15,720 bases of DNA, from positions 1 through 15,720 of the forward strand of contig CAKQFF010000030.1 of assembly GCA_934230685.1 (NCBI GenBank), given 5' to 3'. The stretch comes from an uncultured Prevotella sp. (GTDB lineage Bacteria > Bacteroidota > Bacteroidia > Bacteroidales > Bacteroidaceae). Position numbers and translations under genes: made by a program. Shown piece by piece: positions 1-15,720 of the stretch. Under the pieces are notes generated by a model, which was not told the DNA's origin, searched no databases, and was given only the letters and a program-made list of their open reading frames with translations. Positions within the stretch are counted from its first letter, which is position 1, and every line of letters begins with the position of its first letter.

Positions 1-566
1 ACTCTTACTTGCCAACCAACAAAGATTTTGAATTTTAATGCGGTTGGTCTGTTATAGAGTTTGTCTTCGTTATAAGCGCGTACTCCACCAATACAAAGGT
101 GAACCGATTGCCCATTGATAGTTTTTGTAAGGTTCTTGACGTGGCAGCAAAAAGCCAATCTCTGATAAAATACCGTCTTGTCTGCATCTGTCAATTCACT
201 TGCTTTCTTGTGTTGAGCTGATGGTATTCTTCCAATAATAGGATGAGAAACCCTGCACTCAACAGGTGTAAGTTCTCCAAATACTTTCTCGGCAACACTT
301 CTTACAGAACCAATAAAATTCTGGTGTGCTAACGTTAATGTGCCATCAACAAAAGTAGGAATTACGTTCTTTGTTTGCAACTCTTCAAGCGTGATACTCT
401 GAGTGTTGCTTTCAATGAAGTTAGGATGGTTGTCACCCCAATCTTCTTCTTCAATAACTTCAGCCTCGATTATATCATCTGATTTTTCGAGACCCAAGGT
501 TATGTCTGATGTGATAGTCCCTGCTGTAGGAACAATCACGGCTGTAGTTGCTTCTTTCTTCTTCAT
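1..566 (-). CDS. DUF3871 family protein, C-terminus beyond window
   Basis: About 188 codons are open from an ATG at 566 down to the window edge, so the C-terminal part is missing. The N-terminus is MKKKEATTAVIVPTAG, followed by an acidic linker (EAEVIEEEDWGD). A more conserved part contains FIGSVRSVAEKVFGE, RVSHPIIGRIPSAQ, VFYQRLAF and HLCIGGVRAYNEDKLYN. The combination RVSHPI-GRIP, a YxR motif, and GGVxxYNxDxLY matches my memory of DUF3871, a family of unknown function confined largely to Bacteroidota mobile elements. The start overlaps an upstream frame ending in ATGA, suggesting coupling to small upstream ORFs. No biochemical role can be read from the sequence. The family assignment is by recall, not by search. 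Confidence 0.75.
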   Translation of the reverse strand, partial: MKKKEATTAVIVPTAGTITSDITLGLEKSDDIIEAEVIEEEDWGDNHPNFIESNTQSITLEELQTKNVIPTFVDGTLTLAHQNFIGSVRSVAEKVFGELTPVECRVSHPIIGRIPSAQHKKASELTDADKTVFYQRLAFCCHVKNLTKTINGQSVHLCIGGVRAYNEDKLYNRPTALKFKIFVGWQVR

Positions 567-588
567 GTTGTTATTCTTTTTGAAGTTG

Positions 589-726
589 TTAGCAAACTGT
601 AAAGTAACTTAGTCGTGGGAGGAAAGGAAAGCGTATAATCTTTGCCTTCATGTTTCTCACGAGTTCCACCTTGCCATTCTTATTGATGGCTTTGATGATA
701 AGTTCTGATTTAGTTGTTTTGTTCAT
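589..726 (-). CDS. small ORF, 45 aa, possibly frameshifted
   Basis: An ATG at 726 opens a 45-codon frame beginning MNKTTKSELIIKAINKNGK, which reads like a genuine N-terminus: a basic, amphipathic helix then a turn. After VELVR at about residue 24 this frame becomes less protein-like and stops at 589. The frame one base back continues as HEGKDYTLSFPPTTKLLYS and ends in a TGA that overlaps the ATG of the DUF3871 gene at 566. Either the annotated 45-aa frame is the product, or the intact gene spans both frames (726 to about 564) and carries a one-base deletion or a -1 shift near 655. I do not recognise the family. Confidence 0.35.
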   Translation of the reverse strand: MNKTTKSELIIKAINKNGKVELVRNMKAKIIRFPFLPRLSYFTVC

Positions 727-874
727 GTTTATTATATTTTGAACAGTTAAAACTATGGGAGCAATCAGATTTGATTTTACTGGTTGCTCCCGATAATTTT
801 TTCCACCCTTTGAAGAAAAATGTTATAGCCTCCAATAGGGTAATTATTGTGTCGAGCTTTTCGTTTTTACTCAC
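710..874 (-). CDS. possible small ORF, 54 aa, GTG start
   Basis: A GTG at 874 overlaps the end of the 57-aa ORF upstream and opens 54 codons starting (M)SKNEKLDTIITLLEAITFF, then FKGWKKLSGATSK. The stop overlaps the start of the next small ORF by 17 bases. The first half could be one amphipathic or membrane-associated helix. The tight overlap chain argues for a run of small genes, but the GTG start, the composition of the C-terminal half and the short length make this a weak call. It could be leader sequence only. Confidence 0.25.
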   Translation of the reverse strand: MSKNEKLDTIITLLEAITFFFKGWKKLSGATSKIKSDCSHSFNCSKYNKHEQNN

Positions 875-1040
875 ATACAGGCTCAACTTTGTTTGTTGTG
901 TCGGTTGTCATTACAGGCTTTACCGACTTTTTGTTCTTGTACTTGCCGTAGATGGTTTTTCCAAGGTCTGCGGCTTCGATTAAAGTGACAGCTACACAAA
1001 GTACACGGTAGCCAATCACAAGAGTTTTTTTGATGTTCAT
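867..1040 (-). CDS. small ORF, 57 aa, unrecognised
   Basis: An ATG at 1040, preceded by an A-rich leader (AGAAAAA), opens a 57-codon frame. Residues 4-24 (KKTLVIGYRVLCVAVTLIEAA) form a hydrophobic, helix-like segment. A basic stretch with GKYKNKK at 32-38 and a Thr/Asn-rich tail follow. It could be a small membrane-anchored protein. It is the first ORF of the minus-strand run leading into the DUF3871 gene, and the terminator at 1120-1159 just upstream isolates this run from anything transcribed earlier, so a promoter should lie between about 1041 and 1120. I could not find a TAnnTTTG match there. Family unknown. Confidence 0.42.
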   Translation of the reverse strand: MNIKKTLVIGYRVLCVAVTLIEAADLGKTIYGKYKNKKSVKPVMTTDTTNKVEPVCE

Positions 1041-1119
1041 TTTTTCTGATATTTTACGTTGTTATTAAATTGTTTTGTCTATTCTATTAGTAAGGCTTTT
1101 AAGCGATAGCAGAAAAGAC

Positions 1120-1159
1120 AAAAAAATAGAGGCTCAAAAACACTTTGGTTTTTGACCTC
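1120..1159 (-). terminator. intrinsic terminator, minus strand
   Basis: TCAAAAAC (1134-1141) pairs with GTTTTTGA (1148-1155), and GAGG (1129-1132) with CCTC (1156-1159), with one bulged base and a 6-nt loop. On the minus strand the stem is followed by TATTTTTTTG. No convincing gene ends at it, which suggests a short minus-strand transcript from about 1325-1163. Confidence 0.7.
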
Positions 1160-1444
1160 ATAAATAAAACTTCAAGCATCAGCCTGACCTGCAAATTAAC
1201 CGCATCATAAGGGTTAAAGTTCCAGCCAAAGCCAAAGTTCATGTTGTTCCAAATTCATCATCTGGCAATCCCTTTCTTTATGCTTTGAAGCTCGTCAAGA
1301 ATTTTGTCCTGACGATTTGATATATTTACATTCAACTATAAGAGTATCAAGGCTTTACAAACGTTCGTTTTTATACCACCCACAAAAACAGGCAAATAAA
1401 GAACAAAAAGCCTTATATATGTAACAAAGTCAAAAGTAACGATT
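1160..1444. other. non-coding stretch between divergent units
   Basis: I see no convincing gene here. On the minus strand TTTG then 17 nt then TATAGTTG (about 1332-1361) is an imperfect promoter candidate that would yield a roughly 200-nt transcript ending at the 1120-1159 terminator. The ORFs in that transcript (25 aa, 15 aa, and 47 aa running through the terminator) are not convincing. The plus-strand promoter of the 1445 gene should also be here; TATATATG near 1415 is only a near-match to TAnnTTTG. Confidence 0.4.
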
Positions 1445-1768
1445 ATGTTTGAATATATGTTTTCCCTTGTTACCGATGAATTTAAAGTAGTTGGTGAAGG
1501 ACAGGAGACTCAACACTCCAAGGAACAGAATAAGGTTGAGAAATCGGTAAAAGGCAAGTTTATCAGAGACCTTGAAGCACTCAGAGATAATGGATATTCT
1601 CTTACCTCTGGAAGTAATATTGAAATTAGCTTACAAGACATTTTGAAGATTTGCCCAAGAGACAGAAGAAGAGTAGATGCCTATAACTCTTTGAAGTCAT
1701 ATCTCAATGAAGAGTTTAGCTGTACTCTTTGTATCACATCACAAAAAACTAAAGGAAAGGAGGATTAA
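1445..1768 (+). CDS. hypothetical protein, 107 aa, first of a two-gene unit
   Basis: The frame runs from ATG at 1445; an alternative in-frame ATG is four codons later. Residues about 20-36 are charged and Gln/Glu/Lys-rich (probably disordered or a short coil). Residues 38-107 look folded, with FIRDLEALRDNGY, then EISLQDILKICPRDRRRVDAY and SLKSYLNEEF, and a basic C-terminus TSQKTKGKED. The ILKICPRxRRRxDAY block looks like the core of a conserved family I cannot name. There is no signal peptide or membrane segment. The stop is 2 nt before the next ATG, so the two genes are almost certainly cotranscribed and probably coupled. It is oriented opposite to all its mobile-element neighbours, as cargo genes often are. 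Function unknown. Confidence 0.7.
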   Translation: MFEYMFSLVTDEFKVVGEGQETQHSKEQNKVEKSVKGKFIRDLEALRDNGYSLTSGSNIEISLQDILKICPRDRRRVDAYNSLKSYLNEEFSCTLCITSQKTKGKED

Positions 1769-1770
1769 CT

Positions 1771-2196
1771 ATGAAATTTTTAATACAGGGAATAGAAATT
1801 GATACCACTAAAGTAAAATATAAGCCAGCATTGGAAGATGTACTTTTGATGGTCACTAAGACTTATTATCCAGATATTAAACTAAGCAAGGTTGAATATG
1901 ATTTTGACGAGAAAGATAAATCTGTCATCCTAACATTTTACAGAGAAACAAAATATCATCTTCTTGGCGATATTAAAGATGTAGATGCCAAATTGATAAC
2001 AGGACTTCCAGAAGATGTTTTTTATCCTACTCCAGGTAAAAACTACTTTTTCTTGTTAGGTTATGCAGATGGATATTATGTTGACCAAAAGGATATTAAA
2101 GATGAATTTATGTCCTGTCAAGCTATAGAAGATGTTAAGGATGTAAACTTCAGTACATCTGATAGTTACTTGAAGATTATGATTTATGGTAAGTAA
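1771..2196 (+). CDS. hypothetical protein, 141 aa, second of a two-gene unit
   Basis: The ATG at 1771 lies 2 nt after the stop of the 107-aa gene, and the preceding AAAGGAGGATT is an unusually good Shine-Dalgarno-like sequence for this phylum, which decides the start. The protein is acidic and cytoplasmic-looking: a beta-rich N-terminus (MKFLIQGIEIDTTKVKYKP), a central YDFDEKDKSVILTFYRET, a segment ending in FYPTPGKNYFFLLGYADGYYVD, and a C-terminus SYLKIMIYGK. I see no catalytic motif, HTH or membrane helix. Tyr and Asp content is high. Its terminator follows at 2202. Possible roles include a toxin-antitoxin, anti-restriction or anti-phage accessory pair with the upstream gene, but nothing in the sequence proves any of these. 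Confidence 0.75.
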   Translation: MKFLIQGIEIDTTKVKYKPALEDVLLMVTKTYYPDIKLSKVEYDFDEKDKSVILTFYRETKYHLLGDIKDVDAKLITGLPEDVFYPTPGKNYFFLLGYADGYYVDQKDIKDEFMSCQAIEDVKDVNFSTSDSYLKIMIYGK

Positions 2197-2201
2197 AATT
2201 A

Positions 2202-2243
2202 GGGGAAGATTAGCTCAGTACTAAATCTTCCTCCTTTTCTTTT
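2202..2243 (+). terminator. intrinsic terminator of the 1445-2196 unit
   Basis: GGAAGATT (2204-2211) pairs with AATCTTCC (2224-2231), extended by G-U and G-C pairs outward, 12-nt loop, followed by CTCCTTTTCTTTTG. It begins 6 nt after the stop of the 141-aa gene. Confidence 0.7.
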
Positions 2244-2404
2244 GTCTTGGGAAATTGTCTTAGGGTTAAATTTACTATACCTTTATCTTCTTGCAGTCGA
2301 TAAAGGATATGTTATTATGATAATATAGGTGTAATTTCTTTGTCTCTATAATATATAATATGTGTATGAAGTTTTTACACCTCTTAAATGTATATTTAGG
2401 GTAT

Positions 2405-2424
2405 CTCATTCTGTAAGGAATGAG
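2405..2424. repeat. perfect 7-bp inverted repeat downstream of the helicase gene
   Basis: CTCATTC (2405-2411) and GAATGAG (2418-2424) surround a 6-nt loop, with GTA/TAC extending the pairing after one bulge. It lies about 30 bp past the minus-strand helicase stop (2455). With no T-run on either strand it is at best a weak terminator, or an RNA-stabilising or protein-binding site. A second, looser inverted pair, AGGTGTAA (2327-2334) and TTACACCT (2375-2382), lies close by. Confidence 0.45.
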
Positions 2425-2454
2425 TACAAGTAAGTTTATCCCCAAGTGAATTTA

Positions 2455-4104
2455 TTACAAAACCAAGGATATTCCAAATTTCTGCAATATACTGATTAAG
2501 TGTTTATAGTCTCTTCTCTTTTTATTCTTGCCTATGAGATTGTTGACTTCTTTTAAAGGTATGTTTATGGTTTTATTCTGATTACTCTCTGCTATCATTT
2601 GGGGGATATAAGGAAATCTCTGAGATAACCTTTCAATTTGACTGATAACTCTTTTGCCATTATTGAGTTTCTTTACCTTATCTCTCCAGTCTATATGCTC
2701 TTCTGGAATATCAAGAATGTTCTGGTTAAAATACTTCTCCAAGGTCTGTATAAAATCTCTATTGTGGTCATCTGTATAAAATACTTTGATGTCATTGTCC
2801 TGTCTGATACTTATTCTTGTTATCAACTGAACATACTCCCAAAGCATATATCTTGTAAGAGTCGTGTTTGTTTGGAAAACCTTGTTAAATTTTTCTGAAG
2901 AGGTTGAAACTGGAAGAGACCATTTACCAAGGAGGATTATGTTACTGTAGTCCTTAAAGTCATTAACAGCTTTACTTTCAGCACTTCCGTAATAGATAAT
3001 ACTGTAGAGGTCTTGTGGGATATTTGCTTTAGTCAGTTCATCAGAAAGTAAAGCAACAATAGTACTATCATTACTGCTTTGAGCATCACTTGTTATCCCA
3101 TTATCTTCACCCTTAAAATCATTCCAACAGGTAATGAGAGTTCTTCCTTTTACACAGGAAAGAATAGCGATTACGGCTTTAACCATACTCTTTATTAACT
3201 CTTGATGATTTTTGCTCCTACGGTTAAGATTGGGAACATTAAAGCTATGGAAGTCAGCCTTAGCTCTGTACTTATTCGGGATGTCAATAAGTCTATATAT
3301 GCTTGAATCCTTGAATAGTACATCACCAGCACCTTCCATAATCAACACAAGACTATTATTTGTTTGGAAATCACAAGGGGAGAATTGGATTACCGCATCA
3401 CCTTGTGCTTTCATCATGTTTGAATATTCACTTTCAACAATAGAGAGAGCTGTTTCTGTCTTTAGCTTTCCCAATGCTGTTGCCGTGTCAAATAAAGCAG
3501 CATCAGAGTGAGCAATGAATGTGTTATAAAACTTTTCCATTGCCACAAATTCTTTTGCCTTATACCCACCATTACCATCATCTGCCCCAAGAACACCCAA
3601 AAGCTGTTTAGATACAGTTGCATACTTTTGTATAAAGCCAGGAATCTCATCAATGATAATCCAACGGCGAGTATTGGGATTATTCATCAACTTCTTCCAG
3701 TCACCATCAAAAGGAGGCAGGGCTACACAATTTTTATTGTAAAGCAAATATACAGGGGGATATTCTGTATAAAGCCTAACGTTGGTCATAATCAACACTT
3801 TCTTCTTGGTTACTTCTTCTGGGGTATTGGCATATTCATTCTGAACATTATAATCAGTTTGGGAATGAATAAGCATAATGTCTGTTGCAGCCAAGCCTAA
3901 TAGGTTCAGCAAGTCGTAGTACAAGGTGTTGGCACTAACGATGGAATCAACCACAATCAACATTCCTTCCATATAGTGTGCCAATATGAATCGTTCCAAC
4001 CAGTAAGTTTTACCTGAGCCACATCCTGTACTCAAAATAAAATTACCCACATCATCAGGCAATTCCACGTTACAATTCTTTAAGTTGATTTTTAATATTG
4101 CCAT
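2455..4104 (-). CDS. SF2-type ATPase/helicase-like protein of a mobile element
   Basis: This is a 549-residue cytoplasmic protein. Walker A/motif I is STGCGSGKT at 25-33. Motif Ia-like LIVVDSIVSAN is at about 49-59. Walker B/motif II is WIIIDEIPG at 148-156 (D152, E153). A candidate motif VI, QLITRISIR, is at about 426-434. That order and spacing fit a two-lobed superfamily 2 (DEAD/DEAH-like) helicase. The C-terminal 100 residues are basic and may bind DNA (NKKRRDYKHLISILQKFG). Motifs are divergent from housekeeping helicases, as in phage or plasmid proteins. It is the last gene of the minus-strand run DUF3853-ParB-Myb-helicase, separated from the Myb-like gene by 112 bp containing a long imperfect hairpin. 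A role in element replication is inferred. Alternatives are a nucleic-acid translocase or a terminase-like ATPase, but no nuclease domain is visible. Confidence 0.72.
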   Translation of the reverse strand: MAILKINLKNCNVELPDDVGNFILSTGCGSGKTYWLERFILAHYMEGMLIVVDSIVSANTLYYDLLNLLGLAATDIMLIHSQTDYNVQNEYANTPEEVTKKKVLIMTNVRLYTEYPPVYLLYNKNCVALPPFDGDWKKLMNNPNTRRWIIIDEIPGFIQKYATVSKQLLGVLGADDGNGGYKAKEFVAMEKFYNTFIAHSDAALFDTATALGKLKTETALSIVESEYSNMMKAQGDAVIQFSPCDFQTNNSLVLIMEGAGDVLFKDSSIYRLIDIPNKYRAKADFHSFNVPNLNRRSKNHQELIKSMVKAVIAILSCVKGRTLITCWNDFKGEDNGITSDAQSSNDSTIVALLSDELTKANIPQDLYSIIYYGSAESKAVNDFKDYSNIILLGKWSLPVSTSSEKFNKVFQTNTTLTRYMLWEYVQLITRISIRQDNDIKVFYTDDHNRDFIQTLEKYFNQNILDIPEEHIDWRDKVKKLNNGKRVISQIERLSQRFPYIPQMIAESNQNKTINIPLKEVNNLIGKNKKRRDYKHLISILQKFGISLVL

Positions 4105-4148
4105 TACATATGATTTTTAAATTATTGCTTTTTTGTCTTTTAAATAAC

Positions 4149-4181
4149 GATACCAACATGACTAAAAATCATGCAGGTATC
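4149..4181 (-). repeat. imperfect hairpin between Myb-like and helicase genes
   Basis: GATACC (4149-4154) pairs with GGTATC (4176-4181) and CATGA (4157-4161) with TCATG (4169-4173), separated by a 2x2 internal mismatch, loop CTAAAAA. The pairing extends outward through TAA/TTA. On the minus strand no T-run follows directly, so it is more likely an operator, processing site or attenuator than a strong terminator. Confidence 0.5.
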
Positions 4182-4216
4182 ATTATTAAAATATAGAGGA
4201 GGTTTTACAGCACAAG

Positions 4217-4651
4217 CTAAGACAGACCGAGTTTCTTCTTACGACTAGAGATAGCTCCTTCATTGCGTCCAAGTAACTTTGAAATATCACGAGTTGTAAG
4301 TCCTTGAATGTGGTATTTTTTCAACATTTCTTCTTCCTCTGTAGTCCACGGATTATAAGCCTTTTTATATTTCACTTTCAATTCATCCATGTGGCTTGTT
4401 GCCATTGGGGAATTCGTAAAAGAAGGGAGGATCGGAACAAGAGCCTGAGATTGCAAGGAATCTGAAGGCAAATCTTTTTTGATTGCAAACAATGCTCTGG
4501 CTAATTTTTCCATTTCTTCATGGGTGAGACTTATAGTGCCTGTAACCACACCTCCAATCTCTTGCTTTAAAACAACTCCGTGGTCGCCAATGTCAATGTG
4601 AACCCTACCTATTACACTATTGACATAGTGCTTTTTGTAATTTTTTGCCAT
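4217..4651 (-). CDS. Myb/SANT-like HTH protein, 144 aa
   Basis: Residues 1-60 form a small domain with alternating beta-like stretches (SVIGRVHIDIGDHGVVL, GGVVTGTISL) and a helix (THEEMEKLARALFAI). A proline/serine linker follows. Residues 99-144 make a tri-helical DNA-binding domain: NPWTTEEEEMLKKYHIQGL with the Trp typical of Myb/SANT or GcrA-like folds, then TTRDISKLLGRNEGAISSR as helix-turn-helix, and KKKLGLS at the end. The start is 2 nt past the stop of the ParB-like gene, so the two are probably translationally coupled. It probably binds element DNA as a regulator or a partition/replication accessory factor. It could also be the specificity partner of the ParB-like protein; that is inference from context. 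Confidence 0.7.
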   Translation of the reverse strand: MAKNYKKHYVNSVIGRVHIDIGDHGVVLKQEIGGVVTGTISLTHEEMEKLARALFAIKKDLPSDSLQSQALVPILPSFTNSPMATSHMDELKVKYKKAYNPWTTEEEEMLKKYHIQGLTTRDISKLLGRNEGAISSRKKKLGLS

Positions 4652-4653
4652 AC

Positions 4654-5730
4654 TTATAACTTTATATTTTGCTGTCCCAAGAAGAAAGAGAAGGCTTTGT
4701 CAAGAATCTGCTTACGCTTCTCATCTTTTCGCTGCACCTTGGTACTCTTGGCAGCCTTAATATCTGCAACTTCCTTGTCTGTGAGAGTATTGATAAACTC
4801 CACCATTATGTCAGTAGCCCACTCAACACCCTTTCTGTTGGTTAATTTTTGAAGGGACAAGACAATCTCTTTCGTAAACTCTTTAGTCTTTATAGTCTTG
4901 TCATCCCCCTCTCCAAATCTATCTTTGAGAACTTCATGAATACGTTTGCCATATTCAATGTTTACGAAGAACTCACTCTCATCACCGTTTGCAACTTGTC
5001 TTGCTGTGAGGCGGTCAGGTTTGAGTGTTGCCAACTGACAGGCTGCTTGATACTTATAGCCCTTAGAAACAAGGTCGTTTATCATTACCCAACCCTCATG
5101 AGTATTATCACCATCTTCTATCTGACGCTTGGCTACCATGTCCTGAGTTTTCCACTTAGAGACATTGATGTTTATCTCAGTAAACGCTTTGGCGAAATTA
5201 TAATAACCATTTTTGTCCTTCATCGGGAAATGTCCCATGATGAGAGGCCACTCTTGTACAGTTTGCAAGAAGTCTACTCTACCATGCCCATCCACAATGA
5301 CAATACCATCAGAGTTTACAGGCTTGTCTTTGTTAGGGTCATTGGCAAATCGCTCTATTTTTATGCCTGCCTTTTCTGCCATCGGTACTGTTATGACAAT
5401 CAAGCTCTGTTGTGCGCCATTTTCAAGGATAGAGCGACCTGTCTTCTGCTCATCTGCGCCATGAGTACGATTTACACCAAGACCATAAAACTCAACACCC
5501 GCATCTTTAAGTCCCTTCAAGTTCAAAGAAGCAACATCGTCATTCGGGAATGTTGAGACACAATTAGGATATTGCTCTTTAACACGCAGCATCTCAAACT
5601 CGCAAAACTCTGTAAATGCCTTCAGGTTTGCCTCTTCATTGCTCTCCTGAGTGCTCGTCTGCTCAACAGCTATGTTTTCCGTTTCTTTACTAATTGGCTT
5701 TACAGCCACGTTTTCTAATTCATTTGTCAT
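4654..5730 (-). CDS. ParB/Spo0J-like protein, 358 aa
   Basis: A Glu/Thr/Ser-rich leader (1-35) precedes a ParB N-terminal-type domain: RSILENGAQQSLIVI at 99-113 corresponds to the 'sIxenGllqPlvV' part of the family, and IVIVDGHGRVDFLQ at 143-156 matches the ParB box (DGHxR). R151 would be the CTP/nucleic-acid-contacting arginine in ParB-like folds. Residues 195-245 (TQDMVAKRQI to YQAACQLATL) look helical, in the place of the central HTH. The C-terminus is basic (KVQRKDEKRKQILDK). No ParA ATPase gene lies next to it, so it may be a regulator or ParB-like nuclease/CTPase of the element rather than half of a ParABS pair. It sits 6 nt downstream of the DUF3853 gene and 2 nt upstream of the Myb-like gene, in one operon. 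Confidence 0.78.
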   Translation of the reverse strand: MTNELENVAVKPISKETENIAVEQTSTQESNEEANLKAFTEFCEFEMLRVKEQYPNCVSTFPNDDVASLNLKGLKDAGVEFYGLGVNRTHGADEQKTGRSILENGAQQSLIVITVPMAEKAGIKIERFANDPNKDKPVNSDGIVIVDGHGRVDFLQTVQEWPLIMGHFPMKDKNGYYNFAKAFTEININVSKWKTQDMVAKRQIEDGDNTHEGWVMINDLVSKGYKYQAACQLATLKPDRLTARQVANGDESEFFVNIEYGKRIHEVLKDRFGEGDDKTIKTKEFTKEIVLSLQKLTNRKGVEWATDIMVEFINTLTDKEVADIKAAKSTKVQRKDEKRKQILDKAFSFFLGQQNIKL

Positions 5731-5736
5731 AATTCC

Positions 5737-6051
5737 TTATTTTTTGTTGTTAACTGCTGATGCGTTGCGTCTTGCTTTCATCAATTCAAGAGCCAAGTCC
5801 GCATCAATTACTATTACTTTGCCATGTTGACTGATTGCTGGGTTTAAGATGCCACTGCTTTTAATTTTTGAAGCGGTAGATTTACATACTCCAAGCAGTT
5901 TAGCCAGTCCTGCCAATCCGTAAACCAGATGTTTTTTAACCTCTGGCGGTTTGTCGTGGGGATAGTCTGTAGGAGTTGCAAACATATCCTCAATCATTTC
6001 TTTCAAGTCACCCAGTGTTGCCTGGATGATAGGCTTGCTTTCTTTTTCCAT
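5737..6051 (-). CDS. DUF3853 family DNA-binding protein
   Basis: I choose the ATG at 6051 (104 aa, MEKESKPIIQATLGDLKEM). An upstream in-frame ATG at 6090 lies on top of the -7 promoter element (6088-6095), so it would not be transcribed. Residues about 46-60 (VYGLAGLAKLLGVCKSTA) followed by SKIKSSGILNPAISQ form a MerR/excisionase-like winged HTH, and VIVIDADLALELM is the strand-helix that closes the family signature. This matches DUF3853, small Bacteroidota mobile-element proteins with an excisionase-like HTH. It heads the operon with the ParB-like gene 6 nt away. A role as operon regulator or recombination directionality factor is inferred. The repeat array upstream (6135-6213) is a natural candidate binding site. 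Confidence 0.82.
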   Translation of the reverse strand: MEKESKPIIQATLGDLKEMIEDMFATPTDYPHDKPPEVKKHLVYGLAGLAKLLGVCKSTASKIKSSGILNPAISQHGKVIVIDADLALELMKARRNASAVNNKK

Positions 6052-6087
6052 GTTTATTTTGCGAGGCTTTAGTGCCGAATCGCAATG

Positions 6088-6095
6088 CAAAGGTA
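6088..6095 (-). promoter_or_regulatory. promoter -7 of the DUF3853-ParB operon
   Basis: On the minus strand TACCTTTG is an exact TAnnTTTG match followed by C. Transcription should begin near 6081, giving a leader of about 30 nt before the ATG at 6051. The -33 region is poor (CTTTA about 17-18 nt upstream instead of TTTG), which may imply activator dependence. Confidence 0.6.
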
Positions 6096-6134
6096 TTAAT
6101 GGATTTGGCGATTAAAGAATAAAATTATCCCAAG

Positions 6135-6213
6135 CGGATTGTTGCGGAAAACATTTTTTTTAACGGAAAAGTTTTGGGAAGTTACGGAAAATGTTTTCCG
6201 TAAAACGGATTGT
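6135..6213. repeat. CGGAAAA array with perfect palindrome (operator or iterons)
   Basis: CGGAAAA occurs at 6145-6151, 6164-6170 and 6185-6191, spaced 19 and 21 bp, close to two helical turns. The last copy is half of a palindrome: TTACGGAAAA (6182-6191), two bases, TTTTCCGTAA (6194-6203). The whole block is flanked by direct repeats CGGATTGT (6135-6142 and 6206-6213). The two-base centre is too tight for an RNA hairpin, so a dimeric protein site is more likely. It lies about 50-120 bp upstream of the operon promoter. Confidence 0.65.
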
Positions 6214-6370
6214 AATTTGACTGATTAGTGGATGCTATAGACACAAAAATAGCCATCGCCCTAATGTGAACGACAGCTATTATGTGCTACTCAAATATAA
6301 GAAGCATGATAACTATATATGTGATGTTCCAAAACATAATTACTATACCCTCAAATAAAATAGCATAATG

Positions 6371-6394
6371 GGGGGACTATTAGGGGGACTACTT
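6371..6394. repeat. GGGGGACTACTT tandem pair, left
   Basis: Two 12-mers in tandem at 6371-6382 (GGGGGACTATTA, degenerate) and 6383-6394 (GGGGGACTACTT), preceded by an AT-rich run and AATGG similar to the context of the right-hand pair. Candidate integrase arm-type sites or remnants of an attachment site. Confidence 0.6.
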
Positions 6395-6547
6395 TGTAAG
6401 ATTTATGGCTAAAGTACAGTATTAGGCAAAAGCACAAGTTGCAAATGGGTACAATCTTTCCCAATCATAAATCAACAAAAACACCCAAAAAGACGGACAA
6501 CAGCGCAAAGTCAGTGTTAAACAAATATAAAAATAATATTGCGCAAT

Positions 6548-6572
6548 GGGGGACTACTTCGGGGGACTACTT
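6548..6572. repeat. GGGGGACTACTT tandem pair, right
   Basis: Two exact copies of GGGGGACTACTT at 6548-6559 and 6561-6572, 13-nt period, 177-178 bp from the left pair and in the same orientation. The pair ends only 8 bp from the A-run of the tRNA-Ser terminator. Confidence 0.65.
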
Positions 6573-6580
6573 AAAACTAT

Positions 6581-6619
6581 AAAAAGAAAAAGTCCTGTAA
6601 ATCAAAGACTTACAGGACT
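6581..6619 (-). terminator. intrinsic terminator of tRNA-Ser
   Basis: Perfect 10-bp stem AGTCCTGTAA (6591-6600) and TTACAGGACT (6610-6619) with a 9-nt loop, followed on the minus strand by TTTTCTTTTT. It begins 6 nt after the mature 3' end of the tRNA. Confidence 0.9.
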
Positions 6620-6625
6620 CTGTTG

Positions 6626-6710
6626 CGGAGAGAGAGGGATTCGAACCCCCGGTACCTCTCAGTACGCCGGTTTTCAAGACCGGTGCATTCGACCACTCTG
6701 CCATCTCTCC
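6626..6710 (-). tRNA. tRNA-Ser (anticodon UGA)
   Basis: The 85-nt gene has a 7-bp acceptor stem (GGAGAGA/TCTCTCC) and a G discriminator base at 6626. The D-arm contains AGTGGTCGAA. The anticodon stem is CCGGT/ACCGG with loop CTTGAAA, so the anticodon is TGA (6674-6676). A long class II variable arm has a GTAC/GTAC stem, and the T-loop is TTCGAAT. No CCA is encoded. The gene reads UCA codons. Its 3' side faces the mobile element, consistent with use as an integration target. Confidence 0.97.
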
Positions 6711-9459: not shown

Positions 9460-10062
9460 TTATATTTCATCCACTCCCACATATCCGTGCATCACGGCAT
9501 AGATGGTGAGTGCAGACACGCTGCGCATGCCAAGTTTGGTCATAAGATTTTTGCGGTGGGAGACAATCGTCGGCAGACTCAGATTGAGTAGGTCGGCGAT
9601 TTCTTTGTTTATATGCCCCTTCACCACAAGCGACAAAACCTCAATCTCGCGGGGTGACAGAGGTGTGGAAATATTGCTTTCGGCATTAGGCAATGGCGGG
9701 AGATTGCGTCCGTGGGCATGTGCGTGTTGCTCAAGCATAAGGATGGAGCGCAGCAACTGTTTGGGCGGCAGGCTTGTGCATATAGTATGGAAAGAGCTTA
9801 GGGCCGACGTGTCGTCGGCAGCCGAGCTTGACAATACAATGGTCTTGTGGCGCATCTGCTGAAAGAAAGGCATATGGGCAAGCACGACACGCATGTCGAC
9901 AAAGTAATGAAAATACTGTTCGGGGTGGTTGGCCTCAAGTTCGGCAAACGACCCAAATGAGTCGATGTGCATGATAGGCATTACCGACTCCAATAAATGA
10001 GTCAACCCCAATACTGCGAGAGTATTGGGGTCGACTATAGCGATACGTGGACTGTTGTTCAT
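9460..10062 (-). CDS. LuxR-type regulator with degenerate receiver-like domain
   Basis: I choose the ATG at 10062 (200 aa). The longer frame would overlap nrdG entirely, and this ATG lies 1 nt past the nrdG stop. Residues 1-110 resemble a CheY-like receiver: IAIVDP with D11, and FVDMRV with D56 in the phospho-acceptor place. The usual Lys-Pro near the end of the domain is replaced by TSLPPK, so phosphorylation signalling is doubtful. A linker HAHAHGRN (113-119) is histidine-rich. Residues 134-195 are a LuxR/FixJ HTH (LSPREIEVLSLVVKGHINKE, then TIVSHRKNLMTKLGM). As the third gene of nrdD-nrdG-luxR it probably reports on or controls this operon or anaerobic genes. The target is not visible. A perfect 10-bp inverted repeat lies in codons 11-19. 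Confidence 0.85.
   Translation of the reverse strand: MNNSPRIAIVDPNTLAVLGLTHLLESVMPIMHIDSFGSFAELEANHPEQYFHYFVDMRVVLAHMPFFQQMRHKTIVLSSSAADDTSALSSFHTICTSLPPKQLLRSILMLEQHAHAHGRNLPPLPNAESNISTPLSPREIEVLSLVVKGHINKEIADLLNLSLPTIVSHRKNLMTKLGMRSVSALTIYAVMHGYVGVDEI
10006..10030. repeat. perfect 10-bp inverted repeat inside the luxR coding region
   Basis: CCCCAATACT (10006-10015) and AGTATTGGGG (10021-10030) around 5 bases, about 32-57 nt downstream of the ATG of the regulator. It would be a strong RNA hairpin or a dyad operator. No T-run follows. Confidence 0.7.
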
Positions 10063-10063
10063 T

Positions 10064-10531
10064 TTATTTTCTCCAGAAACGTGAGGTGATATCGGTGAAG
10101 TCGTCGCCTGCAGCGCGCTTGTAGAGGCGCTGGTTGGTGGTGCGCTCCTTAAGGCATCCGAGATGTTCGATGTATGGACCAAGCTTGATGTAGTCGAAGT
10201 CGCGCTTGCGAATCGACTTGGGGAAGTGTTGTCTTCCACTATACCAAGCCACCTTTAAATCTTCATGCTCGCGATGCAGATACTGTGCAAGTTGGCTCAC
10301 ATACTTAGGGTCGGCATCTCCACCCATAAAGCAGATGCAGGTGATGTCGCCGCCATACTGTTTCATAAACTGGTCGAGCACCATGGGAGTAAGTGGCTTG
10401 CCAATATTCTCCCACAGATACTGGCTGTGGCATCCAGGACAATGACAGGGACATCCGGTGATGTTGATCGACAGAGTCACCTCGTCGGGTATTTCCTGGA
10501 ATACGATTCCTGTGTTTAGATAATTGAGCAT
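10064..10531 (-). CDS. nrdG: anaerobic RNR-activating protein, radical SAM
   Basis: The protein installs the glycyl radical on NrdD using S-adenosylmethionine and a [4Fe-4S] cluster. With ATG at 10531 it is 155 aa; a TTG four codons upstream is possible but less likely. The radical-SAM CxxxCxxC is in TGCPCHCPGC (C27, C31, C34). The extra Cys29 within the motif is typical of NrdG. FMGGDADP (about residues 68-75) takes the place of the GGE motif, and a YSGR follows. The length fits the NrdG family. It starts 28 nt after the nrdD stop and ends 1 nt before the luxR ATG, so the three genes form one operon. Active only without oxygen, because the cluster is O2-sensitive. Confidence 0.95.
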   Translation of the reverse strand: MLNYLNTGIVFQEIPDEVTLSINITGCPCHCPGCHSQYLWENIGKPLTPMVLDQFMKQYGGDITCICFMGGDADPKYVSQLAQYLHREHEDLKVAWYSGRQHFPKSIRKRDFDYIKLGPYIEHLGCLKERTTNQRLYKRAAGDDFTDITSRFWRK

Positions 10532-10559
10532 GAGGCTATCCAATTAAAGATAAAACATA

Positions 10560-12662
10560 TTAGTCCTTTATCGACTTGTCTACCTCAGCGTAGTAGCGAC
10601 GCTTGGCCTCTTCCTGACGAGCCTGAGAGAAGTTGCTCACACGCTTGAGGTAGCCGATGATACGTGTCATGTAGTCAATATTCTCGCTTCCGCAATGTGG
10701 GCACTTCTTGAGATAGCGCTTGTCGATGTAGCCACAATCGTTGCAGATAGTGTTTGGAATGTTGAATGTAAAGTAGTTGCATCCCTCCTTAGCAGCAACG
10801 CGCAGGAGCTGGCGATACTGAGGCTTTGAGAGGTGTTCCTCCAGATTCATGTGCAGAGCCGAGCCTCCGGTAAGGTGCTCGATGTATGGCGCACCGTGGA
10901 GTTTGAACTTGTCGACAATGTTGAGCGAGTCGTCCTCTACCACATAGAAATAGCTGTTGTAGCAGTCGCGCGGCACAAAATAGCCGTCCTCGCGGTCCCA
11001 CTTGGCATGCTTTACGCCTACGTTCTCTGCGGGAATCATCTCGCAGTTGAACATAAGTTCCTTGGTGTGATATTGTTTGTTGTACTTCTCCACAAGACCA
11101 AGCACCTTCTGTACGAAGTGCAGATAGTCGGGATTGTCGTTGATTTTCAAGCCCATGAACTCGGCAGCCTCTACAAGTCCATTCACGCCAATAGTGAGAT
11201 ACTGGCGGCTCATATTGATGTAGCCGGCGTCGAACAGAGGCAACATGCCCTGATTCTGCAAGTCCTTGAGATTCTCATTGTAGGCACTCTGCACCTTATG
11301 GCAAAGGTCGATGATGTGGCCAAGGAACTCCATGTAGTCCATGTTGTTCTTTACGGCATACTGGATGCAACGGTTGAGGTTGATGGTGAGCACGCTCTTT
11401 GAGCCTGTAGACACGCCACCAGCACCGAGAGTGTAGCTGAAGCCATTGTCCTGAATCTGGTTGCGCAGACGGCAGCAAGAACTCAGGGAGTCGGCATTGT
11501 CGCTCATGTAAGTAAAGAAAGAGTGACCCTCGGAGTACATCTCGGCAGTAAAGTCGCCCCATTCCTTATCTATAACGTCACCGTCCTTAGAGAGCAGAGC
11601 CATGGTTTCAACAGGGAATGTGAGCACAGTCTTGGTGCGCTCATGGTTGAACCACTTCATGAATCTCTTCTGAAGCCAAGACAAAGAATCCCAGTCGGGC
11701 TTTGAACCATCGGGGAACATAAATTCGCCGAAAAGGCTCTCGAAGTAAGGTTTGTCATAATAAGCAATGTTCCAGAACACAGCCTGATAGTTGCGTGCGC
11801 CGGTAGGCTGGTTGATGGAATATACAATCTGCTCGAAGCAGTCGGTGATCATTTTGTCGATAGTGCGCTGCTTGTTGGAGAGGTCGACCACATCGCCCAC
11901 ATGCTGCCAATAGTCCTTGCCATACTCAAGACCGATGAAGTAGTTGAGGTACATAAGGAACTCAGGAGTGGCGCATGCACCACTCAGCATACTTGACACC
12001 ATGAACACCATGTTGACGAAACCGCCACAGAACGACTTCAAGTTGGTAGGCTTGGTAGAGTTGCCACCGATTGACGATGTTCCACCAATGAGCCACGGGT
12101 ACATTGTTATAGATGCACAATAGTTGGCAAGCGATGTCTCGTCGTTCTTGTAGATGAAGTGGTGATAGAGCTTATCGATATACTCATTCGCAAGCTCTTT
12201 GCCATACATTTTCTTGATACGATCGGTAAGCAAACGGCGGTTTAATCTGATGAAGTTCGACTTGGGAAGCTCGCCTATGAGAGTGGCGATATTCTTGTGC
12301 TCGACATTCGCGTTTGCGTCATACTTTGAGCTTGTTGCAGCGTTGGCTGCTTTGCAATAGTCTGTCAAAAATTTCAACTTGTCGATAGTCTCACGGTCTT
12401 CATTGTGACGCTGTCGATAGAGCATGAACGACTTTGCAACCTTATAAAAACCCTCGCGCATAAGAGCCTCTTCCACCTGGTTCTGGATATCCTCTACGGT
12501 GATACCTTCGTGAACGTCTAAGTGGCTGAGTACCTTAGAGATAACACTAAGATTAACCTCCTCGTTGACAGACTCGAAAGCCTTTGTTACGGCATTCATT
12601 ATCTTGTCTAAGGAGAACTGATCCTGCGACCCATCGCGCTTGGTAATTAGAAAATCTTTCAT
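10560..12662 (-). CDS. nrdD: anaerobic ribonucleoside-triphosphate reductase (class III)
   Basis: The enzyme reduces ribonucleoside triphosphates to deoxyribonucleotides using a glycyl radical. I choose ATG 12662 (700 aa, MKDFLITKRDGSQDQFSLDK), because the ATP-cone domain (about 1-95) begins right there. A longer frame from 12722 would run through the repeat cluster of the leader. The glycyl radical site is RIIGY near the C-terminus (G670). A zinc site CNDC...CPHC (C640, C643, C654, C657) lies just before it. The ATP-cone indicates allosteric activity control by ATP/dATP. It is the first gene of nrdD-nrdG-luxR. Its leader of about 120 nt carries four AAAGTTTTCC-type repeats, suggesting dedicated regulation. 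Length and motif order are normal for the family. Confidence 0.96.
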   Translation of the reverse strand: MKDFLITKRDGSQDQFSLDKIMNAVTKAFESVNEEVNLSVISKVLSHLDVHEGITVEDIQNQVEEALMREGFYKVAKSFMLYRQRHNEDRETIDKLKFLTDYCKAANAATSSKYDANANVEHKNIATLIGELPKSNFIRLNRRLLTDRIKKMYGKELANEYIDKLYHHFIYKNDETSLANYCASITMYPWLIGGTSSIGGNSTKPTNLKSFCGGFVNMVFMVSSMLSGACATPEFLMYLNYFIGLEYGKDYWQHVGDVVDLSNKQRTIDKMITDCFEQIVYSINQPTGARNYQAVFWNIAYYDKPYFESLFGEFMFPDGSKPDWDSLSWLQKRFMKWFNHERTKTVLTFPVETMALLSKDGDVIDKEWGDFTAEMYSEGHSFFTYMSDNADSLSSCCRLRNQIQDNGFSYTLGAGGVSTGSKSVLTINLNRCIQYAVKNNMDYMEFLGHIIDLCHKVQSAYNENLKDLQNQGMLPLFDAGYINMSRQYLTIGVNGLVEAAEFMGLKINDNPDYLHFVQKVLGLVEKYNKQYHTKELMFNCEMIPAENVGVKHAKWDREDGYFVPRDCYNSYFYVVEDDSLNIVDKFKLHGAPYIEHLTGGSALHMNLEEHLSKPQYRQLLRVAAKEGCNYFTFNIPNTICNDCGYIDKRYLKKCPHCGSENIDYMTRIIGYLKRVSNFSQARQEEAKRRYYAEVDKSIKD

Positions 12663-12708
12663 TGTATTTAGTGATATATTTTTGACAACTTTTAAAATCC
12701 GAAAACGC

Positions 12709-12763
12709 AAAAAGTTTTCCATTTTGGAAAACTTTTGGAAAACTTTATTAGAAAAAGTTTTCT
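12709..12763 (-). promoter_or_regulatory. four-copy AAAGTTTTCC repeat cluster in nrdD leader
   Basis: AAAAAGTTTTCC (12709-12720) and GGAAAACTTTT (12726-12736) form a perfect 11-bp inverted repeat with a 5-nt spacer. A further direct copy GGAAAACTTT (12737-12746) and an opposite near-copy AAAAAGTTTTCT (12752-12763) follow. With the -7 at 12788-12795 all four lie in the transcribed leader. They could be operators or alternating RNA hairpins. The sequence does not resemble the NrdR box as I know it. Confidence 0.6.
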
Positions 12764-12880: not shown

Positions 12881-13837
12881 TTATAGTTTCACAGAAGATA
12901 TGTCGACAAGGTTATTAACTATTGCATAAATGGTCAGCCCTGCTGGACTGTGTATCTGTAACTTACGAGCAATGTTACGTCTGTGGGTGATGACAGTGTT
13001 GACCGAAATACACAGATGATCGGCAATTTCCTTGTTGGTCATTCCCTGCACGAGAGCCACAATCACATCCTTCTCTCTCTCGCCAAGTGCCTCTGTGCCC
13101 TCAACATTCTTGCCTATCATGTTGGATATTTTGGCTGTCACATCGCTCTGCTTCGACTTATGCTCCAGTCGTCTTACAGCAGGGATGAATATCTGTTCCT
13201 CCACCTCGGCGTGTAGCGCGAGCCATTCCTCATTATTATATATATCATATAAGGTGGCAGAGAGCTGGTTGTTGTGCAGGCCGTCGCTGGGCAGGTATTT
13301 GATGATTATGCTCTTGAGCTCGCGCAGCTTATTGCTCTCCTGTCCGTGGTGCTTGGAATACATGTCGATCTCGAAATCGCCCACAGGCTTGCCCTGGAGC
13401 AATGCCTCAACGTATGGGTAGACGTTGTTCTCCTCATATTTCATGTGGGCAGTAACCGAGCGGGCGTATTCATCATAAAGCTTAAGGATGAGTCGTGCGA
13501 GATTGTCTTTCTCGTCGAGAGCCTCCACAAGTTCCTTTCGGATGAAAGGCAACTGGAAGCCGAGGAAATACTCATGGCTCGCCTTGAGATATTGCAGAAG
13601 GGTAGGCATGGACAGCCGCGAAGCGTCGTCGAAGTCGCGATATCCATTTATCGTGAAGTTGACCACAGCAAGGAAAGTGTACGTGTCGACATGCTGTTCC
13701 TCGCACACCTGGCTCACGGTCTTGTCGCCAAAACCAAGGCTAATGCCGAAACTGCCCAGACTCTGGAGCAGATTGTAGTTATCCCGGATAAGAGAAATCA
13801 TCTTGTCATCCGGCTCATACATTTTGTGATTTTTCAT
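12881..13837 (-). CDS. RIC/hemerythrin di-iron domain fused to LuxR HTH
   Basis: The 318-aa protein joins three parts. Residues about 10-60 look like the ScdA/RIC N-terminal domain, but the usual Cys-Cys is replaced by LGFGDKT. Residues 80-225 form a hemerythrin-like four-helix bundle with H88, H131 and E135 (HMKYE), H163/H164, H209 and E213 (HAEVE). The pattern matches the six-ligand di-iron site known for YtfE-type RIC proteins. Residues 250-312 are a LuxR HTH (LGEREKDVIVALVQGMTNKE, then TVITHRRNIARKL). RIC proteins respond to NO and oxidative stress and deliver or repair iron. Fused to an HTH, the bundle probably senses O2, NO or iron and controls transcription. It lies just upstream of nrdD and is divergent from a porin/imelysin pair, which are candidate targets. 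No phospho-receiver is present. Confidence 0.9.
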   Translation of the reverse strand: MKNHKMYEPDDKMISLIRDNYNLLQSLGSFGISLGFGDKTVSQVCEEQHVDTYTFLAVVNFTINGYRDFDDASRLSMPTLLQYLKASHEYFLGFQLPFIRKELVEALDEKDNLARLILKLYDEYARSVTAHMKYEENNVYPYVEALLQGKPVGDFEIDMYSKHHGQESNKLRELKSIIIKYLPSDGLHNNQLSATLYDIYNNEEWLALHAEVEEQIFIPAVRRLEHKSKQSDVTAKISNMIGKNVEGTEALGEREKDVIVALVQGMTNKEIADHLCISVNTVITHRRNIARKLQIHSPAGLTIYAIVNNLVDISSVKL

Positions 13838-13851
13838 CTTATTGTATGCTT

Positions 13852-14001
13852 ATACCTAATAATAATCTTGTATCTAATATATATGATATATATACCTATT
13901 TATATAACACGTGCAAAATAACAAAAAAAACGCGAGACATACAATCATTATAAATAGGTATTTTGATTTATTAAAGCTTTGGATATGGGCAAAAATACCT
14001 A
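13852..14001. promoter_or_regulatory. divergent control region with ATACCTA repeats
   Basis: ATACCTA occurs at 13852-13858, 13892-13898 and 13995-14001, and inverted (TAGGTAT) at 13955-13961. The 10-mers ATACCTATTT (13892-13901) and AAATAGGTAT (13952-13961) form an exact inverted pair. A minus-strand TATTTTTG at 13990-13997 fits TAnnTTTG and could be the promoter of the hemerythrin-LuxR gene. One repeat overlaps it, as expected for autoregulation. Confidence 0.5.
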
Positions 14002-14047
14002 AATATGATGATGAAACCGACACAATGACATTTACCCAATATTGAGT

Positions 14048-14079
14048 ATTGCCCGATTTTGTTAATCATAATACCTTTG
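14048..14079 (+). promoter_or_regulatory. promoter of the porin-imelysin unit
   Basis: ATTG (14048-14051), a 20-nt spacer, then TACCTTTG (14072-14079), an exact TAnnTTTG -7 followed by C. The expected start is near 14086, leaving a leader of about 20 nt to the ATG at 14105. Confidence 0.7.
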
Positions 14080-14104: not shown

Positions 14105-15403
14105 ATGAATAAATCGACTATCGTTAGCATGGCTTGCGCAGCCGCAATGTGCGCTCCGCTTGCCTCACAGGCACAGACAGTAGCAGCCGACAGCGTGATG
14201 CAACACTCCAAAGGCAATCGCCTTAGCGTAGGCGGATATGGCGAAGTGGCAATGAGCCGCAACTTCTATAGCGACTCGGGCAACCGCTATAGTTCGGCAA
14301 GTAGCCGAAAGAACGATCCAAGTCATGGACGTTTCGATATTCCTCATGCCGTGATTTATCTTGGCTATGACTTCGGAAAGGGTTGGACCCTTGGTACAGA
14401 GATTGAGTTTGAACATGGCGGCACGGGTTCTGCCATTGAATATGAGGCCGAGGAAGCCATTGAGTTTGAGCAAGAGCAGGAACGCGGTGGCGAGGTAGAG
14501 CTTGAGCAGTTCTGGATTCAGAAGTCGTTTGGACGTTTTGCCAATATCCGTGCCGGACATATTGTAGTGCCTGTAGGTTTGACAAATGCCTATCATGAGC
14601 CGTTGAACTTCTTCACAGTATATCGCCCTGAGGGTGAAAACACCATTCTTCCTTGCACATGGCATCAGACAGGTGTGTCGTTCTGGGGACATTCTGGTGA
14701 TTTCCGTTATGAAGTGCAGATGATAGCAGGTCTTGACGCTTGGCAGTTCTCGCGCGACCAATGGATAAAGCCTGGTACAACAAAACCGTTTGAGTTTGAG
14801 ACAGCCAACAAGTATGGATTCTCTGCACGTGTAGACAACTACACAATCCCCGGACTTCGAGTAGGCTTGAGCGGCTACTATGGACAGTCGATGCATAATG
14901 CCGTGCCTCACGACATGGAGACAGGCAAAAATAAGAAGATAAAAGGCAACGTGTATGTGGGTGCGGTAGACTTCACATATAACGCCCACAACTGGGTGGC
15001 CCGCGGCAATGCTGACTATGGTTATGTGAGCGACGCTAAGACCATCAGCGCGATACGCAAGCCTGGCACACAATACGTTAAACCCTACGAGAGCAACCAG
15101 ACATTTGGCTCACACGCCATAGCCACAAGCTTTGAGCTTGGCTACGACATTTTCTCGCAGATAGCAAAGCTTCGTGCCGACAAGCAGAAGCTCTATGTGT
15201 TCGGTCATATTGAGTACTACAATTCTTGTCTTGGCAGTTCGAAGGAATATACAAGCAAGAAGATATTCGCAGGCGGCATCAATTATTATCCGTTGCCACA
15301 GATTTGCGTGAAGGCAGAGTACAGTTACCGCAAGCTCAAGTCGCAGTATAACGATGAGCCGGCTGTGAACATTGGGGTTGCTTATCAGGGACAGTTCCTT
15401 TAA
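14105..15403 (+). CDS. outer-membrane porin, OprP/phosphate-selective-like
   Basis: The 432-aa protein begins with a signal peptide (1 to about 23, ending ASQA-Q). The mature part is a beta-barrel: alternating strands such as RLSVGGYGEVAMS, DIPHAVIYLGYDF and NIRAGHIVVPVG, ending in VNIGVAYQGQFL with a near-terminal aromatic residue. PVGLTNAYHEPLNFFTVYRPE followed by WHQTGVSFWG matches the conserved inner-loop region of OprO/OprP-like porins. An acidic insert (about 111-134: EYEAEEAIEFEQEQE, then EVELEQ) should form a loop. The usual substrate of the family is phosphate or another anion, but an acidic loop and an imelysin neighbour suggest iron or another cation. The promoter lies at 14048-14079. 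Confidence 0.82.
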   Translation: MNKSTIVSMACAAAMCAPLASQAQTVAADSVMQHSKGNRLSVGGYGEVAMSRNFYSDSGNRYSSASSRKNDPSHGRFDIPHAVIYLGYDFGKGWTLGTEIEFEHGGTGSAIEYEAEEAIEFEQEQERGGEVELEQFWIQKSFGRFANIRAGHIVVPVGLTNAYHEPLNFFTVYRPEGENTILPCTWHQTGVSFWGHSGDFRYEVQMIAGLDAWQFSRDQWIKPGTTKPFEFETANKYGFSARVDNYTIPGLRVGLSGYYGQSMHNAVPHDMETGKNKKIKGNVYVGAVDFTYNAHNWVARGNADYGYVSDAKTISAIRKPGTQYVKPYESNQTFGSHAIATSFELGYDIFSQIAKLRADKQKLYVFGHIEYYNSCLGSSKEYTSKKIFAGGINYYPLPQICVKAEYSYRKLKSQYNDEPAVNIGVAYQGQFL

Positions 15404-15510: not shown

Positions 15511-15720
15511 ATGAAAAAGATTCAGAATTACGTGATGGCGTTCCTGCTTGGAGCCATGACAATCGGATTTACAGCTTGTGGCAGCGACAATGGTGGCGAC
15601 GAGGAGTTCAACCTTCCTGAGGTTGGCCAGGCTACAACATCAGTAAGCAGCTCAGACAAGGAGATGCAGAAGGTGGCAAAGAACTACGTGCAGGCAGTTG
15701 TTTATCCTACATACCAGGCT
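15511..15720 (+). CDS. imelysin-family lipoprotein, N-terminal part
   Basis: The first 70 residues are present; the gene runs off the window. The N-terminus MKKIQNYVMAFLLGAMT is a lipoprotein signal, with IGFTACGS giving a lipid-modified Cys at 24. An Asp/Gly/Glu linker (DNGGDEEF) follows, then the start of the folded domain with KNYVQAVVYPTYQA. The NYVxxVVxPTYxA helix is the usual start of the imelysin (peptidase M75/EfeO-like) fold, a family of surface iron- or heme-linked proteins without proven peptidase activity in many members. It lies 107 bp downstream of the porin on the same strand with no terminator recognised between them, so an operon is likely. Confidence 0.8.
   Translation, partial: MKKIQNYVMAFLLGAMTIGFTACGSDNGGDEEFNLPEVGQATTSVSSSDKEMQKVAKNYVQAVVYPTYQA

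Follow-up and report, generated by a model that had tools for sequence, protein, structure and literature searches.

The window analyzed here is a 15,720-nt stretch of a contig from an uncultured Prevotella sp., and its features are collected in Table 1. The first-pass annotation had described a RIC-derived domain of the di-iron type joined to a DNA-binding domain, and this observation was confirmed: the ORF encodes a RIC-like hemerythrin domain, in which all six YtfE di-iron ligands are present, joined to a LuxR-type HTH. The imelysin assignment of the last gene in the window rests on a full-length relative in locus L001, which matches PF09375.

Table 1. Features of the window and of the fusion protein encoded in it
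Feature	Position	Strand	Remarks
lux2, second LuxR-type protein	9460..10059	-	about 199 aa; no Pfam receiver match
nrdG activase	10064..10543	-	incidental neighbor
nrdD, anaerobic ribonucleotide reductase	10560..12722	-	incidental neighbor
Hemerythrin-LuxR fusion regulator	12881..13837	-	318 aa
Degenerate ScdA_N-like N-terminus of fusion	residues about 8-65		alignment with RICs
Putative di-iron hemerythrin domain of fusion	residues about 77-220		ligands H88, H131, E135, H164, H209, E213
Long helix of fusion	residues 186-243		
LuxR/GerE HTH of fusion	residues 250-305		
Bacteroidetes-type -7-like element TATTTTG of regulator gene	13914..13920	-	sequence and spacing rule
Predicted operator of regulator gene	13945..13964	-	PWM score 25.2; center 13952.5
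Second strong predicted operator, divergent intergenic region	13992..14011	+	PWM score 26.9
7-2-7 inverted repeat TACCCAA-TA-TTGAGTA	14033..14048	.	center 31.5 nt upstream of porin -7-like box
-7-like element TACCTTTG of porin-imelysin operon	14072..14079	+	
Porin-like outer-membrane protein	14105..15403	+	divergent neighbor, predicted target; no Pfam match
Imelysin-family lipoprotein	15511..15720	+	cut by window end; predicted target via porin operon

The genome collection contains 458 stretches that encode the protein, and the neighborhood was compared across the best 80 of these; the 80 relatives are 73-92% identical and all come from Prevotella and allied genera. Some of these loci end early at contig ends, and the following counts are to be read accordingly: 45 of the best 80 loci have a divergent porin-like gene and 31 have nrdD (directly downstream in 27), while lux2 directly follows the fusion gene in 19. 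In the window, nrdDG stands between the fusion gene and lux2, and judging by these counts it seems to have been inserted between the two regulator genes. Elsewhere the divergent neighbor, judged from coordinates, is FeoB (four genomes) or flavodoxin (five genomes). In L001 (3082-7754, reverse strand), genes for a porin, an imelysin and a di-haem oxidoreductase (DHOR) lie in a row opposite the regulator, an arrangement suggestive of an operon for iron or haem acquisition. In three Bacteroides-like genomes, lux2 follows an FAD-dependent oxidoreductase gene; a guess from ORF length that this gene encodes Hcp was rejected on the Pfam match. The left part of the window (positions 1-6710) contains DUF3871, DUF3853 and several ORFs with no Pfam match over the cut-off, ends at a tRNA-Ser(TGA) (6625-6710, reverse strand) and looks like an integrated mobile element.

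The LuxR/GerE HTH of the fusion protein scored 58.3 bits against PF00196 (cut-off, 23.5) and is strongly conserved across 81 sequences. The predicted fold of the protein matches RIC, with most of the HTH modeled at a pLDDT under 55. Against the RIC model TIGR03652, the fusion reached 49.7 bits, below the curated cut-off of 204.7. The N-terminal DfCCgG motif occurs in most bacterial RICs (PMC9268430), and its CC pair was found in none of 51 aligned rows. At the position of YtfE E159, His occurs in 76/81 fused rows and in all 22 rows from the stand-alone search; at the E125 position, 16/81 fused rows have an acidic residue and the window protein has Ser, against Glu in 20/22 of the stand-alone rows. 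The fusion does not carry the pair E125 and E159, the residues controlling iron donation in RICs. Of the 11 genomes tested, 2 carry a separate gene for a classical RIC above the curated cut-off. The proposal that the protein is built for sensing rather than repair is supported by the loss of the Cys pair, the replacement of E159 and the separate RIC genes. If the protein served RIC-like repair or iron storage and its HTH were incidental, the fold and the di-iron ligands would be accounted for, but with the HTH so strongly conserved, predicted operators present (see below), the CC motif absent, E159 replaced and true RIC genes found separately, we consider this reading very improbable. All 81 relatives keep Cys45, which lies in the degenerate ScdA_N domain and is aligned in three classical RICs as well.

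A large protein database returned at least 8000 matches to the fusion protein. When the fusion was followed across Bacteroidota, a direction already given in the first-pass annotation, both fused and stand-alone forms of the hemerythrin were seen, the latter in a sample of 395 Bacteroidota genomes and in 61 genomes of the family. In the loci inspected, the stand-alone hemerythrin is 232-263 aa long, and the next gene encodes a partner of about 200 aa. We looked at 13 such pairs: the two genes overlap by 4-14 nt in 6, are separated by 1-8 nt in 5, and in the remaining 2 the partner ORF call begins later. Partners adjacent to close stand-alone relatives have HTHs that mostly share 57-71% identity with that of the window (two share 44-46%, with a longer stretch aligned), compared with a lower identity, mostly 40-55%, for lux2-type HTHs, and an HTH tree (72 columns, some failed long branches) separates lux2. 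By this comparison the window HTH is of the CdhR type rather than the lux2 type. The CdhR-type partners have a receiver-like region from which the phospho-acceptor Asp is absent in 12/12 (Asn in 9, other residues in 3), and a kinase is therefore unlikely as their input. Pfam found no receiver domain in the fusion protein, which accordingly does not classify as a two-component response regulator.

The split arrangement is known from print. A hemerythrin gene and cdhR form the operons PG1236-PG1237 (CdhR) in P. gingivalis and BT_0519-BT_0520 in B. thetaiotaomicron, the operon is fused in P. intermedia (PIN17_RS10465), and low iron raises expression of the split operon about 7-fold in P. gingivalis and 16- to 20-fold in B. 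thetaiotaomicron (PMC10434189). Judged from domain content and order together with that paper, the window protein is the fused form of this known kind of regulator; PG1236/37 and BT_0519/20 are linked to it on these grounds rather than by direct sequence comparison. PMC10434189 states that iron binding by CdhR is not demonstrated, and we would assign the iron site to the hemerythrin partner or domain, not to CdhR. The hemerythrin tree needs seven changes between fused and split forms, at least four by starred branches, and a single gain of the fusion followed by losses could also account for this pattern. One deep-branch fusion of 359 aa (L097, in genome G084) has a differently placed HTH, nearer to lux2-type proteins, in an HTH tree that is short and includes some failed long branches; this placement suggests a second, separate fusion. 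Two fusions of the same partners, if true, would be good evidence that the partners work together.

A conserved putative operator was found upstream of the regulator gene. The 300 nt 5' of this gene were compared in the window and 79 further loci (best 80 of 458); 64 of these 80 upstreams contain the 8-mer AATACCTA or its complement, compared with 0.6 expected from dinucleotide shuffles. Its 98 full instances give a consensus of about aaATACCTAWWWATRRTKATTG, a NarL-like 7-2-7 inverted repeat of about TACCTAW-WW-ATRRTKA. A 20-nt matrix scored above 15 in 70 of these 80 upstreams versus 3/200 shuffles, and within the same loci it gave 107 matches in 31.9 kb of regulator upstream DNA versus 20 in the remaining 1.168 Mb. 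In the window, the two strong predicted sites lie in the divergent intergenic region, where binding had been guessed at 13852-14001, and the next best site in the 15.7-kb window scores 9.9. The second arm is degenerate in the regulator's own sites. Across 31 flavodoxin and FeoAB sites, the arms pair as a 7-2-7 inverted repeat at 3.81 of 7 positions, compared with 2.21 in letter shuffles (0/2000 as high) and with 1.87 and 2.13 at spacers of 0 and 1 (the 20-mers reach no larger spacers), and a number of FeoAB sites, among them TACCTACATGTAGGTA in L269, are perfectly palindromic. The deep-branch hemerythrin-LuxR pairs (L094-L102) fall below the matrix threshold. The main text of PMC10434189 does not mention a binding motif, operator or palindrome, and a search of the literature on hemerythrin-LuxR fusions, CdhR sites and iron regulon motifs, which covered few subscription papers, returned neither the operator nor a fixed promoter position nor the predicted regulon. 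The architecture and the iron response of the split operon are already published; in that search we found no account in print of the operator, the promoter geometry or the predicted regulon.

The operator also keeps a fixed position in the promoter. We called -7-like boxes with TAnnTTTG, which we take to be the Bacteroidetes -7 consensus. Among the 71 regulator upstreams with a site (from the best 80 of 458), 58 site-promoter pairs fall into one 2-nt bin, with the site center about 32 nt upstream of the box, and 13 pairs fall into the same bin among 17 flavodoxin upstreams with a site. Both window promoters fit, that of the regulator with a distance from 13952.5 to 13920 read by hand and that of the porin with a distance from 14040.5 to 14072, where the repeat scores low with the regulator-trained matrix. 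With a looser pattern, TACY-N8-RGTA, 25 of 34 site-promoter pairs from 46 porin upstreams lie at 30-34 nt, such that the repeat stands at the fixed distance in 25/46 porin upstreams. The looser pattern gave only 4 pairs at this distance over the regulator upstreams (best 80 of 458), because their second arm is degenerate. FeoAB sites are off the 32-nt spacing, with 2/12 within range. The first-pass annotation had also linked the regulator to nrdD, and this link was not supported: a site occurs in 2/31 nrdD upstreams, both shared with a divergent regulator gene, the promoter geometry occurs in 0/31, and nrdDG is present in only 31 of the best 80 loci (of 458). Control of nrdD by the regulator was rejected, nrdD having no operator of its own.

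Sites at about -40 are typical of class-II activators. The position of the predicted operator resembles such a site, and on this basis the regulator is most likely a class-II-like activator. A repressor can likewise use a site near -40, and a Fur-like, iron-loaded repressor, whose di-iron form would block RNA polymerase there and whose loss of iron would release it, would govern the same regulon with the opposite polarity. The same operator evidence fits such a repressor, and PG1237 has been called a repressor of hmu (PMC2671838), but the fixed distance upstream of the -7 box speaks for an activator, as does a review that calls PG1237 an activator of hmu (PMC3832793). These two sources, both of which cite the earlier work, disagree on CdhR at hmu, and we hold iron-loaded repression to be a rather unlikely alternative. 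It overlaps with the other rival readings weighed here, and their odds need not sum to one.

A strict form of the pattern was next applied to the 61 family genomes, in which it matched 31 sites versus 7 for the reversed pattern. We examined 30 of these (one was without a locus), naming ten of the downstream proteins by Pfam and the others by eye or from coordinates. Twelve sites stand at flavodoxin, FeoAB, Zip, porin-family or hemerythrin-regulator genes and four at TonB receptors with no substrate assigned; the remainder include NqrE/Rnf, ResB and nitroreductase genes, sites inside genes and, by eye, enolase, metA and a sulfate-type transporter. The 99% shuffle threshold was exceeded by 17/30 flavodoxin upstreams (0.3 expected; 13/30 below), by 14/29 FeoAB upstreams (0.3 expected; 15/29 below) and by 18/41 upstreams of hemerythrin proteins of other genomes (23/41 below). 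HmuY, the classical target of CdhR, whose control of hmuYR is published for P. gingivalis (PMC10434189), was rejected as a general target: the signal was weak, with a site in 2 of 21 scorable upstreams from a set of 23 loci in which two were too short, start choice was crude and several ORFs are probably not HmuY.

Across the phylum sample of 395 genomes, six with a close relative were set aside, and in the 389 Bacteroidota genomes without one the pattern was not enriched (34 sites versus 47 controls). The difference from the family (31 versus 7) gave a Fisher p of 6e-5 with kinship not corrected, related genomes being counted that are not independent samples. Two genomes with close stand-alone relatives (G353 and G357) held no strict-pattern match. 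A hemerythrin domain is present in 54/61 family genomes, including all 27 that carry this flavodoxin; the 7 genomes without a close hemerythrin domain lack the flavodoxin (one-sided p 0.012, a weak test on small genomes).

The operator could instead be bound by another regulator, such as lux2 or a NarL-type protein, with the hemerythrin-LuxR gene as merely one of its targets. The regulator promoter has the same spacing as the flavodoxin promoters, and LuxR proteins are numerous in these genomes, both of which would fit. For lux2, however, 17/61 genomes have no match better than 1e-20, and at least six of these keep threshold-passing sites at flavodoxin, FeoAB or the regulator; lux2 is therefore not a needed binder, and we rejected it as a necessary partner. 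In addition, lux2 has no site of its own (1/43 upstreams, shared with a divergent regulator), its 43 upstreams, like the 31 of nrdD, contain no TACY-N8-RGTA site-promoter pair, and the family sample, where the hemerythrin domain is common, shows an enrichment that the remaining phylum genomes do not. We judge another binder to be quite improbable.

The nature of the signal was considered next. Hemerythrin sites react with O2 and NO, and a di-iron site that senses either gas could control iron genes through the link between oxidative or nitrosative damage and iron supply. Consistent with this, some stand-alone homologues are named "regulator of cell morphogenesis and NO signaling," Cys45 is invariant, and CdhR is described as an NO stress resistance gene (PMC11728304). 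Against it, the predicted targets that can be named serve iron uptake and iron sparing, no Hcp or NO detoxification gene was recognized among the 30 loci examined, two of these genomes have, at another locus, a classical CC-bearing RIC next to a gene that looks Hcp-like by eye, and in the published data iron depletion is what induces the split operon (PMC10434189). We regard an O2 or NO sensor as unlikely. The two classical CC-type RIC genes just mentioned lie in L118 and L119, and both genomes also carry the hemerythrin regulator. Among the genes most induced by low iron in PMC10434189 is flavodoxin. Together, the predicted targets (flavodoxin, FeoAB and porin-imelysin) and the split-operon expression reported in PMC10434189 point to iron supply as the signal.

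We favor, with a probability of roughly 55%, a one-component, kinase-independent regulator that senses low iron through a di-iron site and acts as an activator at the 7-2-7 repeat. The RIC-like four-helix bundle would hold the di-iron site, whose occupancy (or redox state) would report iron supply. The last helix of the bundle, bearing H209 and E213, appears to continue as the long helix to the HTH and could carry an iron-dependent change to a DNA-binding dimer. The HTH would bind the NarL-like repeat centered about 32 nt upstream of the -7 box, and when iron is scarce the presumably iron-free form would most likely recruit RNA polymerase in a class-II-like manner. In the window it would act on its own gene and on the porin-imelysin operon opposite; in relatives, its targets would include flavodoxin, FeoAB and some TonB receptors. 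Of this model, the domains, ligand conservation, fold match, operator conservation, fixed promoter geometry and shared genes come from the analysis itself, whereas iron binding, DNA binding by this protein, activity of the iron-free form and activation over repression are inferred. More broadly, and at slightly less than even odds, hemerythrin-LuxR/CdhR may be a major iron-responsive regulator of Bacteroidales and a counterpart to Fur, sensing di-iron occupancy without a kinase and, from a NarL-type operator at about -40, activating TonB uptake genes as well as flavodoxin, FeoAB and imelysin-porin when iron is short. If so, abundant gut and oral bacteria sense iron by a hemerythrin-type switch, and the DNA site, the promoter geometry and the short target list make this question directly testable.

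The regulator shares with the hemerythrin-CdhR operon of P. gingivalis, B. thetaiotaomicron and P. intermedia a hemerythrin protein and a LuxR-type regulator, but differs from the split form in that it has lost the receiver-like domain and links its hemerythrin straight to the HTH. It differs from the RIC, YtfE and ScdA repair proteins in lacking the CysCys pair, in having mostly His at E159, in scoring below the TIGR03652 cut-off and in its added HTH. With NarL/VraR-type response regulators it shares the GerE HTH, its best PDB sequence matches being VraR, and with NarL, whose heptamers are arranged as a 7-2-7 inverted repeat, the type of site; unlike these regulators, it has no receiver domain and would involve no kinase step. 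FBXL5 of animals is a hemerythrin iron sensor that controls protein degradation. A hemerythrin fold would sense iron supply in both proteins, and the output here would be transcription.
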